From assembly GCA_903899015.1 (NCBI GenBank), contig CAIUHP010000025.1:1-64000 (forward strand): a stretch of DNA of 64,000 nt, given 5' to 3'. The DNA is from an uncultured Armatimonadota bacterium (GTDB taxonomy: Bacteria; Armatimonadota; Fimbriimonadia; Fimbriimonadales; Fimbriimonadaceae). This document shows, piece after piece, positions 55,707 to 61,628 of this stretch (positions within the stretch are counted from its first letter, which is position 1; the number at the start of each line of letters is the position of its first letter). Both the position numbers and the translations under genes were made by a program. Below the pieces are notes generated by a model that saw nothing but the letters and a program-made list of their open reading frames with translations, did not search any database and had not been told where the DNA came from.

Positions 55707-55835
55707 GTGAGTACGACTAATAGGTCGCAACAACAGGAATACTATGGGGTGATGCACCTCAGCAATGGTTTGAAAGCGGATGAAATGAATCAGATTATGT
55801 TGCTTGCCAATCATTTCAGCCAGGTGCGTTCGTGA
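55707..55835 (+). CDS. 42-residue small protein coupled to the CPBP protease
   Basis: GTG at 55707, with AGGT ten bases upstream, opens a frame (V)STTNRSQQQEYYGVMHLS then NGLKADEMNQIMLLANHFSQ and VRS. The TGA (55833-55835) overlaps the ATG of the CPBP gene (TGATG), the classic sign of translational coupling. The second half is a plausible amphipathic helix. No family recognised. It could be a substrate, an immunity-like partner or a regulatory leader of the membrane protease. Real coding is likely but unproven. Confidence 0.5.
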   Translation: MSTTNRSQQQEYYGVMHLSNGLKADEMNQIMLLANHFSQVRS

Positions 55836-57247
55836 TGGATTCATCCGATATGGTGCCTCCCGTCATTATGGTTGAGCCTCCGGTAGTCCAAGAGTCGGGT
55901 CGTAATTACTTGGGTTGGGCGTCCCTCATCGTTCTGATGTTTCTGACTCTACTATCAGCGGTAGCCGGTTCACTTTCTCCGACCGGAGTAGGCGCAACCA
56001 GCCACGAAGAAGAACAGATTCTGCTGAAGACAACGATGCAACTGGAAGTGAAGTCAACTTCCGGCCCGGCCGATGCTCGAAAGGTCGCCAAAGAGGCACT
56101 CGGCAAGAACATCAAGAACATGCAGAAAGTGCTTTCTGATTTGAGTAAGCAACCTAAAAGTGATCTGATGGCTGTCCGGCTAACAGCAGCTTTTCAAACT
56201 GAACTGCACCTACCAATTTCAACCCAATCGCTAGCCCTGCTGAAAAAAAGCAAATCACCTTCCGATCGACTTTTGCTCCAAGTTTATGGTTCGGAGAAGC
56301 TGACGGCGGCCCAGGCGAAAGAGATCGGATCGCTCTTGCCCGACTATCCGTTCCTTTACGAGGCAGCTAAGGTTCATGCCCTTCAAAAGTCGGGCGACAC
56401 CCATGCGATTTCACGACTCGTTAAGCCCAGAAATGCTTTAGCAACTGGAATTGCGTGTTTTTGCACGGTCGTCGGACTCATGCTTAGCTATTTGGTGTGG
56501 GTGAGTCTCTACCAAAGATACAAAAACGGAACGTTGGAAATTCTTGGACTTCCGATGGCGAAGATCACGCTACTCGACGCCGACCGTTTGGCGGTCCGAG
56601 CCGCTCAGATTTTTGGACTCTACATCGTGATCGAAACAGTTGTGAGCTTATTGCCCCATATTGAGGTCAACCTCTTTCTGCGGACAGTGCTGATGCTAGG
56701 TCTGATGGTCGGAGCAATCGTCCTTCTGCAACGGGTTCCGATTGACGGCAAGCGTATCTCCCTTGACATGCTTGGCGTATCGAAGAGAAACCTCAAGCAA
56801 GACATTCTTCTTGGCTTCCAAGGATTTTTCGCAGAATTCCCAGTTGCAATCATTCTTGCGTTGGTTGGGTCAGCGATTTTCAGCTTCTTACCCAAGGCAT
56901 CTCACCCTGCTTCCGAAGCCATCGCCCGCGATCAGAGTTTGAAGACGGTTATTCCGGTGATCATTCTCGGTTCCGTGCTTGCCCCCATTTGGGAAGAGTT
57001 GGTTTTCCGAGGATTACTGTTACCTGCGCTGAATCGGCTTACCGGCAAACTCATACCCTCCATCCTCATTTCAAGCTTCCTCTTTGCGTCTATGCACCCT
57101 CAAGGGATCTCCATTTGGATGTCTCTTGCAAGCGTTGGCGCCGCTAGTTGCTTGCTGTCGTACAAGAGCCGATCCATGGTCCCCAGCATCGTGATGCACT
57201 GCCTACATAACACTTCGATTTTTGTGCTGGCACTTTTGGTTCAGTAA
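55835..57247 (+). CDS. CPBP (Rce1/CAAX-like) intramembrane metalloprotease
   Basis: 470 residues from the ATG at 55835. One helix near 27-47, then a soluble helical domain (about 50-200), then about eight helices. CPBP motifs: WEELVFRG (E387, E388, R392), FASMHPQG (H421) and VMHCLHN near the C-terminus. The family includes prenyl-protein endopeptidases and bacteriocin-immunity proteins. The start is fixed by overlap with the small protein's stop; the soluble insert is larger than in most CPBP proteins. Confidence 0.88.
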   Translation: MDSSDMVPPVIMVEPPVVQESGRNYLGWASLIVLMFLTLLSAVAGSLSPTGVGATSHEEEQILLKTTMQLEVKSTSGPADARKVAKEALGKNIKNMQKVLSDLSKQPKSDLMAVRLTAAFQTELHLPISTQSLALLKKSKSPSDRLLLQVYGSEKLTAAQAKEIGSLLPDYPFLYEAAKVHALQKSGDTHAISRLVKPRNALATGIACFCTVVGLMLSYLVWVSLYQRYKNGTLEILGLPMAKITLLDADRLAVRAAQIFGLYIVIETVVSLLPHIEVNLFLRTVLMLGLMVGAIVLLQRVPIDGKRISLDMLGVSKRNLKQDILLGFQGFFAEFPVAIILALVGSAIFSFLPKASHPASEAIARDQSLKTVIPVIILGSVLAPIWEELVFRGLLLPALNRLTGKLIPSILISSFLFASMHPQGISIWMSLASVGAASCLLSYKSRSMVPSIVMHCLHNTSIFVLALLVQ

Positions 57248-58689
57248 AGTCGGACGCGGTAGAGTCCGGTTCGACAACCCACCCAAAGATCGTTACCGAA
57301 CTCGATAACCGCTTGGACCTCAGTGAGGTCAGTTGGTAGCTTCGGGCCGGACATGGACTCAACTCCCGTCGCGGTAATGAACCATAGGCTTTTGCCGGCG
57401 AATATTCCACGGACGGCATTGCTATGGGTTGGAACCTTCGAAACGCGCCCCTGGACAATTTGAACGACTCCGCCGCTAAATGTGCCCACGATTGGAACTC
57501 CGGTTCGAGCCACGATGCCTGTCACCCAGTCGTCCTTCAATCCCGCGCCGAGCCCAAGACGGATTGCCGAGCGATCTGGAAGGACATGAACGAGCCCTGC
57601 CCCTTGGGTGCCTATCCAAGTACCCTCTCGGGTCTCGGCCAAACAAGTGACAGGTTTCCCTTGGAGCGATTTGATTCCTAGCTCATGGGTCCATTCTTGA
57701 CCATCGAACTTGCTGAAACCGCCCCACTCTCCAAAGAGCACTCCAGAGCCCGACACCGCAAGAGCCGAGCACTGAGGTCGACGAAGGTTCTTTTCGATGC
57801 CATGAGTCCAACGGACTCCATCAAAACAATCCACCACACCATTGCCGTTTCGCAGGTAAAGACGCCCGCGGAATTCAACTGCTTGACGAGGTGCCTGAGT
57901 AGAAGGTCCAATTACGGCGGACCAATGTTCTCCAGTCCATCGAGCCAGCCCATCTTCCAGCGAGCATGCGTAGAGAACTCCCAGGTATTTGAAAAGCGAG
58001 ACGACAACGTGAGAAGGAATCTCAGACTCATCGTTGGATGGCGTAACCGTACCGTTTGAGGAAATGGAATAGGCTCCCTCTCGACGTGTCCCAACCCAAA
58101 GATTTTCATTCACGTAGCTTAAAGCCGTGACCTCCCTTGAGTGGTTATCCACTAATTCCCATTTGCTTCCAACCCACTCGCAGATGCCCAAGCCAAACGC
58201 GGCAATCCACAATCGTTTGCCATCGGTGGCGACACCTGTGAGGAGAGCCGAACCCTTCGGGCCTTGAATATTCCGACCTTGCGAGACCAGTCGGTCGCTT
58301 TGAATCGACCATTTTCCTCCTTGCCAAAGAACATAAGGCGAAAAATCGAGTGGTCTAGCACTGTCTATCGGAACCATTTTCCCTTCGAGAATTTCTGTCT
58401 CCTGCGGAGAGCCGGAGGAGGCAAATCTCACAAAGATATGACCTCGTATGTTCACCATTCCCGTTACTTCGTTGGAAGGTAATCCATTTGCTCGAGTCAG
58501 CTTTCGACGGATTCCATTTGGGGATACAAAAACGATCCCTCCCGTCGTGCCTAAGACGACAGAGCCATATGTTGCCGGTGCGATCGAGGTGATTTCCCGA
58601 GTGCTCGTAAATTCAGTGACACGGGGACCGAGGCTCGGTTCGGTCCCTTGAGCTGCGAAGAGAATGGATGCGAGAATTACTCCCCGAAT
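57241..58689 (-). CDS. Secreted beta-propeller protein, apparent ATT start
   Basis: 482 residues if begun at ATT 58689-58687. The conventional ATG (58456-58458) would cut off the first 77 codons, which have no stop and encode a signal peptide (RGVILASILFAAQG) and an intact propeller repeat (TGGIVFVSPNGIRRKLTRAN, GLPSNEVTGMV). No ATG, GTG or TTG lies in that stretch; GGGAG seven bases before ATT is an ideal Shine-Dalgarno sequence. The rest is about ten propeller blades (VGTRREGAYSISSNG, IGTQGAGLVHVLPDR). Overlaps the VIT gene by 13 bases. Confidence 0.7.
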   Translation of the reverse strand: MRGVILASILFAAQGTEPSLGPRVTEFTSTREITSIAPATYGSVVLGTTGGIVFVSPNGIRRKLTRANGLPSNEVTGMVNIRGHIFVRFASSGSPQETEILEGKMVPIDSARPLDFSPYVLWQGGKWSIQSDRLVSQGRNIQGPKGSALLTGVATDGKRLWIAAFGLGICEWVGSKWELVDNHSREVTALSYVNENLWVGTRREGAYSISSNGTVTPSNDESEIPSHVVVSLFKYLGVLYACSLEDGLARWTGEHWSAVIGPSTQAPRQAVEFRGRLYLRNGNGVVDCFDGVRWTHGIEKNLRRPQCSALAVSGSGVLFGEWGGFSKFDGQEWTHELGIKSLQGKPVTCLAETREGTWIGTQGAGLVHVLPDRSAIRLGLGAGLKDDWVTGIVARTGVPIVGTFSGGVVQIVQGRVSKVPTHSNAVRGIFAGKSLWFITATGVESMSGPKLPTDLTEVQAVIEFGNDLWVGCRTGLYRVRLY

Positions 58690-61628
58690 CGTCCTACTCC
58701 CTCACCCACGTTATGGGCTTTGTCGATCAGTACTACGCGAACGCTGAACTTCAACTCCGACGGCATGGAAACTGTCGCAGCGAAGTTGCCGTCTCGCACT
58801 TTTGTGAGCGAAACTGACTGGCCGTCTGGCATAACCGCTTCTGCTCGAGCCACGTCAGAAGTACATTCGACTACGATTCGCAGCCCATTTGGAGTCTCCA
58901 ATAACTTGACACTCCCAGTGGGTGGAGTCATGTCGACAACATAAGTAAAGACTTCTGATTTTCGAGTTCCATCCTTTAGAACAGTTATCACGGGAATCGA
59001 GTAACTCCCTTCCCTTGCATAGGCTGGAATCTCGAATCGAGCTTCCCACCGATGGTTCTCAGCGTTCCATTCAAGTCGCTTCATTGTCCCATCCGGAAGC
59101 TTGGTAACAACCATTTGAGCGTCTTTGGGAGAGTTACTGGTAACCAAAGGGTCTCCCCACTGCCCCCGTAGCTCGCTATCTTTCGCTTTAAGCATTTCGA
59201 TTCTTTGCTTGGTCGCATCCGTCTGAGGCTCATGTTCAAGCTGATCGAGCTCTACTTGAACTTCAATACGCTTTGGATGATTGTTGATCCAAGTTTGCCA
59301 ATATTCGTTTGATCCACGCTCCTTAAAGTCGGCATCAACTAGTGCTTGTCGACGATTCGAAAGAACTGATTTGGGAGTGCTTGGGTCTCTGAGCGCTTGA
59401 ATATATTCGTAACGTGCCCGAGCGCTTCCGCGTTCCGTCACTTCTCTAAAAATCTTCTCTCTCAATTTCGCGGGATCGAAATGTCCTACCTTCGAGAGAC
59501 GTTCAAGTTGATTTTCGAGATCCTTGATCTGTGCTGGATCACGTTTGATCAGCTGTTCTTGCCATGCAAGACCATAGGCAACTTGTGAAGCTACATTTTG
59601 CGCAGAACTAGCCAATTCAGCATCAAAACTTAATTCGAATGTCTTTTCAAATAACTGAAGTCGCCGATAAGCTTCTTTGAGCCGATCGCTATCTAGATCA
59701 CCCGTTCGAATTGCTTCCACCATGGGTTGAATGGTTTCCCACTCGGCATAGCTTCGTGAAATGGCTCTCGATCGATCCAGTTTTGTGTAATGCGCTTGAT
59801 CAGAAACCTGGAAATACTCTTTGATTGCTTCTTTCACTTCAGGTGAATCAACCGGATGCTTGAGCGCAATTTGGTTTGCCTTCATGTAAGCGGTTTGAAG
59901 TTTCGCATCGAAGAACTGTTGATAAACAGCCCGATAGGTCTGCCCCTTCGGCTCGTTTACCGCTGCTTCAAGCCGATGAAACTTCTGAGCCAACTCACTT
60001 AAGTTCTCACCTGAGCCAAGTGGAGTCTGACCATATCTAATTTCAACGATTTTGCGAGCAAGACTGTAAATGTCACCGGTTAGCTCATTCGTCAGAAGTT
60101 GGCGGGCCGGGACACCTAAGAGTTTTGCCCACCGACCTAGAGCAACGAGATGTTCGCGGGCTTGTTGCCCGGTATTGCCTTCCCTTACATCGTCGGCGGC
60201 CTGATCGGCTGCTTCGTGAAACGCAGTCGTATTTGCAAGGCACTGCTCAACGAGGCGAGGAGTTTTGAAGTAGGCCTCGATCCTATGGACTCTACTTAGA
60301 GCATTCTTTGCTTCACGGCTCTCATAACGCCCCGCAACGGCTTCCTTTCCGTAGTCGGACGTAAATTCAGTTGCTACGTCATAAACAAGAGTCGGTATGG
60401 CATAGTCCAGTGGATACCCAGCCACCTTCGAGAGGCGACTAGCCTCGGCCAGCTCGACGCTATGGGGATGACCGTCCGCGATCGCCCTGATGTATTTCTT
60501 GATGGCCATGTTCAGGTCGGCCATATTTTTTTCTCGATGATAACGCTCACGTTCTTCGTTAGGTATTGCTAGCCACGAAGTCGCTTTGCTTGGAATGCCA
60601 AATCGTTCGCTGAGCTCCACCATTTGCTTTCGACTTCCGTTGCCAAAATGTTCGAGCTTTTCGACCGCCCACAATTTGGTTGCAAGATTGTTTGGCTCTG
60701 GCTGCCCCGAGAATAGGAATCGGCCCAGGTCGAGTCGTTTCCCACTTCTGTCCACGAGAGCAACATCGCTCATGCCGCTTCCGGTGTACCTTCCCACGAT
60801 CAGCGTGTCTTGATTAGGCTTCAAATGGGGAACGCTAGGGGGCAAGAGTTGACTCAGTTGGATGCCAGGGGCCACGAGTTTGGATGGCCCCCACTTCGCA
60901 CCGTTAATCGTCAATGCAAAGAACCCAACCGCACTCCCTGATGGGGCTGCAAAAAGAGCCGCTCGTATTGGTTTTGAAGCTAGTTTCAGGCTCAATCGGA
61001 GATCTTGCTCCGGTCGATAGTTGGAAGCATTGAAGTGAACATCTGCCGCCGACCCTTCAACCGGATAGTTGGAAATGATCTTTCCATCAGGTCTATTTCT
61101 CAACTGAGCATGGATGTTAAGCGAATCGAGAATCTCTCCTTTGGGAAGCTTGATAGGGAGTTCGATGGTCGTACCGTTGACCAAGGGCTGAACCATCTTG
61201 ATTTCAACCTTGAGGTCGGCATTGGGCATGACCGGGAAAATTCGGGCGCGAAAGGTTCTTTTGCCGATCAGCTCAACCAAGGCGGGGTCGCGCTGTCGAG
61301 TTGTGATTGCTTTATAGATCTCTGCGGCTCGTTCTTTCTCAACAATCTGAGCAGCTACCTTTTCTGATCCGTACCAGTAGGCAAAGGCAGTTGCGCGCAT
61401 GCCACGGCGCAAAGTGTAAATAAAATCGGCCTCAATCCGGCTATTTTGCTGGTTCGCGAAAACGATCGTTAGAGTAGTTTCCGCAAGACCACGGTCAATA
61501 ACGGAATCGACTTGAACCGATTTTTCCCGCAAGGATTCATACGATCCTTCTGTGGGTTTCAGAAAAATCTGAGCGTTCGAAATAGTCCCTAGGCACAATC
61601 CAACCAAGACCGCAAAAAGCTGGCGCAT
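58677..61628 (-). CDS. VIT-domain protein lacking the vWA domain, with a long helical region
   Basis: 983 residues with signal peptide MRQLFAVLVGLCLGTISNAQ. Residues about 25-165 form a VIT domain (DRGLAETTLTIVFANQQNS, GMRATAFAYWYGSEKVAAQI, RTFRARIFPVMPNADLKVEI). The post-vWA segment is kept (DTLIVGRYTGSGMSDVALVD, KLWAVEKLEHFGNGSRKQMV), but no DxSxS vWA metal site lies between. Residues about 480-830 are helical and charged, followed by Ig-like beta domains. GAGAGGGA precedes the ATG. Probably an envelope or matrix protein working with the propeller protein. Confidence 0.78.
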   Translation of the reverse strand: MRQLFAVLVGLCLGTISNAQIFLKPTEGSYESLREKSVQVDSVIDRGLAETTLTIVFANQQNSRIEADFIYTLRRGMRATAFAYWYGSEKVAAQIVEKERAAEIYKAITTRQRDPALVELIGKRTFRARIFPVMPNADLKVEIKMVQPLVNGTTIELPIKLPKGEILDSLNIHAQLRNRPDGKIISNYPVEGSAADVHFNASNYRPEQDLRLSLKLASKPIRAALFAAPSGSAVGFFALTINGAKWGPSKLVAPGIQLSQLLPPSVPHLKPNQDTLIVGRYTGSGMSDVALVDRSGKRLDLGRFLFSGQPEPNNLATKLWAVEKLEHFGNGSRKQMVELSERFGIPSKATSWLAIPNEERERYHREKNMADLNMAIKKYIRAIADGHPHSVELAEASRLSKVAGYPLDYAIPTLVYDVATEFTSDYGKEAVAGRYESREAKNALSRVHRIEAYFKTPRLVEQCLANTTAFHEAADQAADDVREGNTGQQAREHLVALGRWAKLLGVPARQLLTNELTGDIYSLARKIVEIRYGQTPLGSGENLSELAQKFHRLEAAVNEPKGQTYRAVYQQFFDAKLQTAYMKANQIALKHPVDSPEVKEAIKEYFQVSDQAHYTKLDRSRAISRSYAEWETIQPMVEAIRTGDLDSDRLKEAYRRLQLFEKTFELSFDAELASSAQNVASQVAYGLAWQEQLIKRDPAQIKDLENQLERLSKVGHFDPAKLREKIFREVTERGSARARYEYIQALRDPSTPKSVLSNRRQALVDADFKERGSNEYWQTWINNHPKRIEVQVELDQLEHEPQTDATKQRIEMLKAKDSELRGQWGDPLVTSNSPKDAQMVVTKLPDGTMKRLEWNAENHRWEARFEIPAYAREGSYSIPVITVLKDGTRKSEVFTYVVDMTPPTGSVKLLETPNGLRIVVECTSDVARAEAVMPDGQSVSLTKVRDGNFAATVSMPSELKFSVRVVLIDKAHNVGEGVGRFGE

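Follow-up and report, generated by a model that had tools for sequence, protein, structure and literature searches.

How does translation begin in a gene whose N-terminal coding region holds no normal start codon? The question is raised by a gene for a secreted beta-propeller on the reverse strand of the window, the whole stretch of 64,000 nucleotides analysed here, which comes from an uncultured bacterium of the Fimbriimonadaceae. As judged from sequence, the normal start of this gene has almost certainly been lost and its place taken by ATT. It is proposed, with a probability of roughly 0.7, that initiation at this ATT (58689) would be coupled to translation of an overlapping upstream gene for a VIT-domain protein, the G of the start codon having been lost to a conflict with the VIT reading frame and a strong Shine-Dalgarno site compensating for the loss.

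Start Region of the Propeller Gene

A preliminary description of the locus had reported that the frame of the ATG at 58458 stays open further upstream, that it lacks ATG, GTG and TTG there, and that an ATT at 58687-58689 with GGGAG seven bases ahead is the first sensible codon. These observations were reproduced: the frame reaches 58701, none of the three codons occurs in it between 58701 and the ATG at 58458, and the GGGAG occupies 58701-58697. The near-cognate candidates ahead of that ATG are ATT at 58689, 58677 and 58665, several ATC codons and one CTG (58500). The start at 58689 lies 13 nt within the end of the VIT gene, an overlap absent from the preliminary description. Its first base closes a VIT Arg codon (CGA), and its bases 2-3 are part of a VIT Phe codon (TTC). 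The features of the locus are as follows:

57241-58701, reverse strand: open frame of the propeller gene, 486 codons, preceded by TGA (58704-58702) and closed by TGA (57243-57241)
57241-58689, reverse strand: gene for a secreted beta-propeller (Reg_prop-like), 482 aa counted from ATT 58689, identified by its open frame and Pfam Reg_prop
58687-58689, reverse strand: ATT, putative start codon of the propeller, aligned with the ATG of G002 and G010
58697-58701, reverse strand: GGGAG, Shine-Dalgarno site of the propeller, 7 nt 5' of the ATT
58636-58689, reverse strand: probable signal peptide, the hydrophobic N-terminus IRGVILASILFAAQG... of the propeller, near-universal at the same place in homologues
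58498-58593, reverse strand: first blade of the propeller (residues 33-64), four predicted strands, 5' of ATG 58458
58456-58458, reverse strand: ATG, first in frame (Met78), rejected as propeller start
58677-61628, reverse strand: VIT-domain gene, 983 aa (Pfam VIT, E 2.6e-18), the same neighbour in homologous loci
58677-58679, reverse strand: TAA stop of the VIT gene, 7 nt 3' of the ATT

RNA structure at the start gave z-scores from -2.1 to +1.0, with nothing consistent or unusual. At its other end, the propeller gene meets a convergent gene of the CAAX-protease type (55832-57247, forward strand) in a 7-nt tail-to-tail overlap (window positions 57241-57247).

Protein Fold and First Blade

The propeller matches Pfam Reg_prop (PF07494) with an E-value of 1.3e-6 (28.3 bits against a cut-off of 20.4). 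The profile of its family matches the extracellular propellers of the HTCS sensors 4a2l, 3v9f and 3ott, the last of these over profile positions 30-99. The AlphaFold2 model shows an all-beta propeller fold at moderate confidence (mean pLDDT 62), and its best Foldseek matches are HTCS propellers. The likeness to the HTCS Reg_prop propellers thus covers both blade sequence family and predicted fold. Unlike those sensors, however, the window protein appears to stand alone as a secreted protein, lacking kinase and membrane parts and having a VIT-domain protein as its partner. In the model, the strands of the first blade span residues 33-38, 44-48, 51-56 and 59-64, and Met78, encoded by ATG 58458, sits within a predicted strand (75-81).

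Homologues and Their Start Position

Propeller homologues were found in 18 of the 85 genomes of the same family with a protein query, and in 38 of the 291 genomes of the phylum with a profile query; a scan of genome contigs for propellers gave three distant propellers and nothing more. The VIT gene lies immediately 5' of the propeller in nearly all homologous loci, wherever the contig extends far enough, and usually overlaps it. Both genes are on the same strand and most loci show overlaps of 13-22 nt or of 4 nt, a conserved geometry expected of a coupled pair. Two loci (L071 in G019 and L072 in G012) hold natural VIT-propeller gene fusions, with open frames of 1265 and 1311 codons, and the hydrophobic segment is missing from their junction. 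These fusions suggest that the VIT protein and the propeller work together; a literature search of limited extent found no paper linking the two.

The preliminary description had looked to homologues for conservation of the signal peptide and first blade and for the codon used at the start. Both elements are kept in the aligned homologues, the signal peptide as a hydrophobic N-terminus in nearly all, and translation begins at the position aligned with ATT 58689, where most use ATG, GTG or TTG and five others ATC or GTC. The overlap in two genomes of the same genus (G002 and G010) is an identical 13 nt, with ATG exactly at the position of the ATT. The homologue of G068 (L024/L048) has a TTG start with a GGGGAGG Shine-Dalgarno site and an in-frame TGA mid-gene, which marks either a pseudogene or a sequencing error.

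Two other start sites in the frame have to be weighed against ATT 58689. ATG 58458, with the upstream stretch left untranslated, is what gene callers restricted to NTG would choose. Since a full blade is predicted upstream of it and Met78 lies inside a strand, a start there would split a blade; moreover, no homologue found starts at that position, an arrangement that would have spoken against ATT, and this site merits hardly any credence. The second candidate, ATT 58677, is in frame and overlaps the VIT stop (TAATT); contact of this kind with a stop codon is frequent in coupled genes. Its nearest GGGGAG, however, is only ~2 nt away, the hydrophobic segment would drop its only basic residue, and the homologous starts align with 58689, down to the shared 13-nt overlap of G002 and G010. 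Initiation at 58677 is very unlikely because of this Shine-Dalgarno spacing and alignment.

Coding Conflict with the VIT Gene

All six non-NTG starts lie in overlaps of 13-22 nt, with base 1 of the start in third position of a VIT codon, and the long-overlap homologues share this one phase without exception (12/12). In it, any NTG start obliges VIT to carry TGN, read as Cys, Trp or stop. The VIT residue at this place is Cys in five and Trp in one of the six long-overlap homologues with ATG or TTG, whereas it is Ser in five and Phe in one of the six without NTG. Where the spacing is different, the start is NTG in 12 of 12 homologues, seven of which have 4-nt NTGA overlaps whose TGA is the VIT stop. 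Among these homologues, non-NTG starts are confined to the overlap phase that creates the conflict. The start codon would thus not be NTG because, in this phase, any NTG forces TGN into VIT. The preliminary description had suggested translational down-control; the coding conflict appears to explain the non-NTG pattern at least as well.

Distribution of Non-NTG Starts

The aligned start codon is ATC in G030, G086, G063 and G015 and GTC in G033, none of which has a usable NTG. These five genomes form one clade with 100/100 support that spans several genera. ATT, a single base away from ATG, is found at the aligned start only in the window genome (G000), whose branch in the tree is long (1.53). 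Two origins of the non-NTG start are needed because the window genome falls elsewhere in the tree than the five-genome clade. Comparison of the propellers of G030 and G086 gives a dN/dS of 0.15 overall and of 0.19 over codons 8-60, which shows purifying selection on the gene.

The change from ATC to GTC in G033 is silent in VIT (Lys AAA to AAG), and the VIT Lys-Ser codons are kept. Since the A was lost while VIT stayed Lys-Ser, what is being conserved seems to be the VIT residue and not the start codon. The GTC of this locus (L075, 5139-5141), a codon known for Streptomyces sigR, has GGAGGT 6 nt ahead and should be a very weak start. No in-frame NTG lies further upstream in G000 or G063. The only upstream TTG codons of G030, G086, G033 and G015 were considered as starts and rejected: they lie deep in the VIT coding sequence and would prepend 17-29 mostly charged residues to the hydrophobic segment.

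Shine-Dalgarno Strength

The 16S gene was searched for and not found in the window assembly, and an assumed anti-Shine-Dalgarno sequence was used for all duplex energies. Against it, the site of ATT 58689 gives -8.4 kcal/mol; in the same genome, this strength is reached by 6.6% of 226 predicted starts, compared with 0.9% of random internal sites. For the propeller homologues, values of -7.3 kcal/mol or stronger were obtained at each of the six non-NTG starts and at the two TTG starts, whereas none of the ATG starts in the family and order pairs more strongly than -6.7 kcal/mol. This contrast has a one-sided p of 0.003 over all 26, with relatedness ignored, and strong sites also occur at some ATG homologues outside the order. 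The site of the five-genome clade is GGAGGT in four and GAGGT in G015; the GAGGT motif as such is partly due to the conserved VIT residues Glu-Val. The same trade-off between start codon and Shine-Dalgarno site has been described by Belinky et al., who counted one switch from AUG to AUU in 61,358 ancestral AUG starts (PMC5622118).

Genome-Wide Control and infC

As a control, 456 kb of stretches of the window genome with 271 predicted genes were ranked by the coding signal lost ahead of the first NTG. The propeller came second of the 271, behind a gene broken by an in-frame stop, so non-NTG starts are rare in this genome, although the screen is insensitive to short losses. A universal-stress-protein-like gene on contig C16 (L145, 18015-18539, forward strand) has an in-frame TAA after 29 codons (MKILVGVDTARHYQAVINLAARMKFLEPH*ILANSVEV...) and is open on either side. 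On contig C9, an open frame of 2075 aa (L134, 9966-16190, reverse strand) shows coding signal ahead of its first NTG and lacks a normal start, the result of either a rearrangement or another odd start.

Among the readable infC genes of the family, that of the window genome included, almost all have an ATA start behind GAGGTGA. Since infC starts at ATA, cells of this family initiate at near-cognate codons given a good Shine-Dalgarno site. The infC of the window genome (L030, contig C80, ~9.2-9.6 kb, reverse strand) starts at ATA (AGAGGTGAACGAACATAGCAGG...) and has no ATG, GTG or TTG ahead of the conserved INQR motif. In G065, infC has ATT at the start position and ATG three codons on.

Alternative Explanations for the Missing NTG

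A sequencing or assembly error, hiding a true ATG and an ordinary gene in the window genome, would fit an ATT that departs from the ATG of G002 and G010 at a single base, and a Cys at that VIT residue would agree with the relatives. However, a consensus error at exactly base 58687 is improbable a priori, the Shine-Dalgarno site matches those of the other non-ATG starts in its unusual strength, and five other genomes independently lack NTG at this site. An error is unlikely, and because of these five genomes the non-NTG phenomenon would survive even if the base in question were wrong. Synthesis of the propeller as a VIT-propeller fusion by -1 frameshifting would agree with a propeller frame that is -1 relative to VIT in the long-overlap class, and true fusions are known in G019 and G012. 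The crossing-point sequences of the six non-NTG members (GGACGATTC, CGGAAATCG, CGAAAATCG, CGGCGATCG, CGCAAGTCG and CGCCTATCT) nevertheless share no slippery heptamer, the hydrophobic segment is missing where the two parts of the natural fusions join, and most homologues have NTG at the start, all of which argues for a very low probability of frameshifting.

Two further explanations concern why the start changed. Early decay of a dispensable gene could be read into the long branch of the window genome and the in-frame TGA of the G068 homologue, but the 482 intact codons, the strong Shine-Dalgarno site and purifying selection in the ATC pair G030/G086 make it quite improbable. More weight is due to the proposal that the weak start is an adaptive regulatory device, an IF3-controlled down-tuning, and not a by-product of the overlap. 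It would account for the retention of ATC in a clade with long branches; IF3 autocontrol is plausible in a family whose infC uses ATA, and precedents exist in infC, pcnB and sigR (PMC5472188, PMC13009471). Nevertheless, in G033 the A of ATC is gone although VIT still reads Lys-Ser, and non-NTG starts are seen only in the conflict-creating phase, so that a regulatory device is regarded as doubtful.

Proposed Mechanism

The preferred reading, coupled initiation at ATT 58689 after loss of the G to the VIT frame, draws on what can be read from the sequences: the start position, the conserved N-terminus, the Shine-Dalgarno site, the overlap phase and the two separate non-NTG lineages. Translation of the propeller would begin with fMet at ATT 58689, on ribosomes recruited by the strong Shine-Dalgarno site. 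VIT translation probably also delivers ribosomes, and the VIT stop 7 nt further on would allow coupling or termination-reinitiation. Such an overlap geometry fits coupled or re-initiating translation (PMC6728339, PMC12548453). In E. coli, matching mutants of the initiator tRNA have allowed re-initiation at non-AUG codons, and re-initiation is a step on which IF3 acts (PMC2268962).

In evolutionary terms, a change to Phe (window genome) or Ser (ATC/GTC clade) in VIT may have cost the start codon its G, a loss that the strong Shine-Dalgarno site and coupling would have made tolerable. Gene overlaps are known to arise through stop or start loss (PMC3887535). A possible route is that an NTGA overlap loses its TGA stop and Cys or Trp then changes to Ser or Phe; alternatively, TGA could become TCA in a single step, with loss of the G of the start codon. 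Lower propeller output relative to VIT, as well as sensitivity to IF3, may follow.

Overlap with an upstream gene could also be a more general route to stable non-NTG starts, with selection on the upstream protein driving ATG to ATC or ATT and a strong Shine-Dalgarno site plus coupling sustaining the downstream gene over long evolutionary times. This generalization is plausible, though put at somewhat less than even odds; a limited literature search found no earlier description of an overlap-phase explanation of non-NTG starts. If it is true, such genes would be systematically mis-annotated, truncated to the first internal NTG, and standard gene callers would remove the signal peptide and first blade from proteins of this kind. 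Others might be sought in long overlaps in the -1 phase with strong Shine-Dalgarno sites. The propeller case also makes it testable whether coupled (re)initiation relaxes start-codon choice.

Comparison with Known Non-Canonical Starts

We know of very few chromosomal genes with an AUU, AUC or GUC start, and the majority encode regulators or translation factors. This set would be widened by a structural protein that is secreted, whose non-NTG starts belong to two separate lineages and have a simple coding explanation. The best-known member, infC, encodes IF3, an autoregulated translation factor, and starts with AUU, AUC or AUA. The propeller and infC have in common a near-cognate start with a good Shine-Dalgarno site, as in the ATA and GAGGTGA of infC in the same family; unlike infC, the propeller gene encodes a secreted protein and has its start within the gene ahead of it.

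The preliminary description names infC as the main known case of an ATT start, which is broadly correct but incomplete, since pcnB and cvfC1 (AUU), ccpN (AUA) and sigR (GTC) have been described (PMC13009471, PMC5472188). The AUU start of E. coli pcnB is described as limiting expression (PMC13009471). An AUU start is what pcnB and, putatively, the propeller have in common. To our knowledge, pcnB is not an overlap-phase case. In Streptomyces, the regulator gene sigR has a GTC or GTT start that is conserved across the lineage and accompanied by the extended Shine-Dalgarno site AGGAGGTG, and its repression by IF3 has been shown by experiment (PMC5472188). The counterpart in the propeller family is the ATC or GTC kept in the five-genome clade, with GTC itself in G033, whereas ATT is seen only in the window genome; IF3 repression of sigR is experimental, but for the propeller it is a prediction. 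The staphylococcal genes cvfC1 (AUU) and ccpN (AUA) have conserved non-canonical starts with extended Shine-Dalgarno sites, mapped by ribosome profiling (PMC13009471). They share with the propeller family non-canonical starts backed by strong or extended Shine-Dalgarno sites, although cvfC1 is first in its operon and the propeller stands behind the VIT gene. Non-canonical starts backed by a Shine-Dalgarno site are therefore of a kind already known, and the secreted propeller is a new candidate member.
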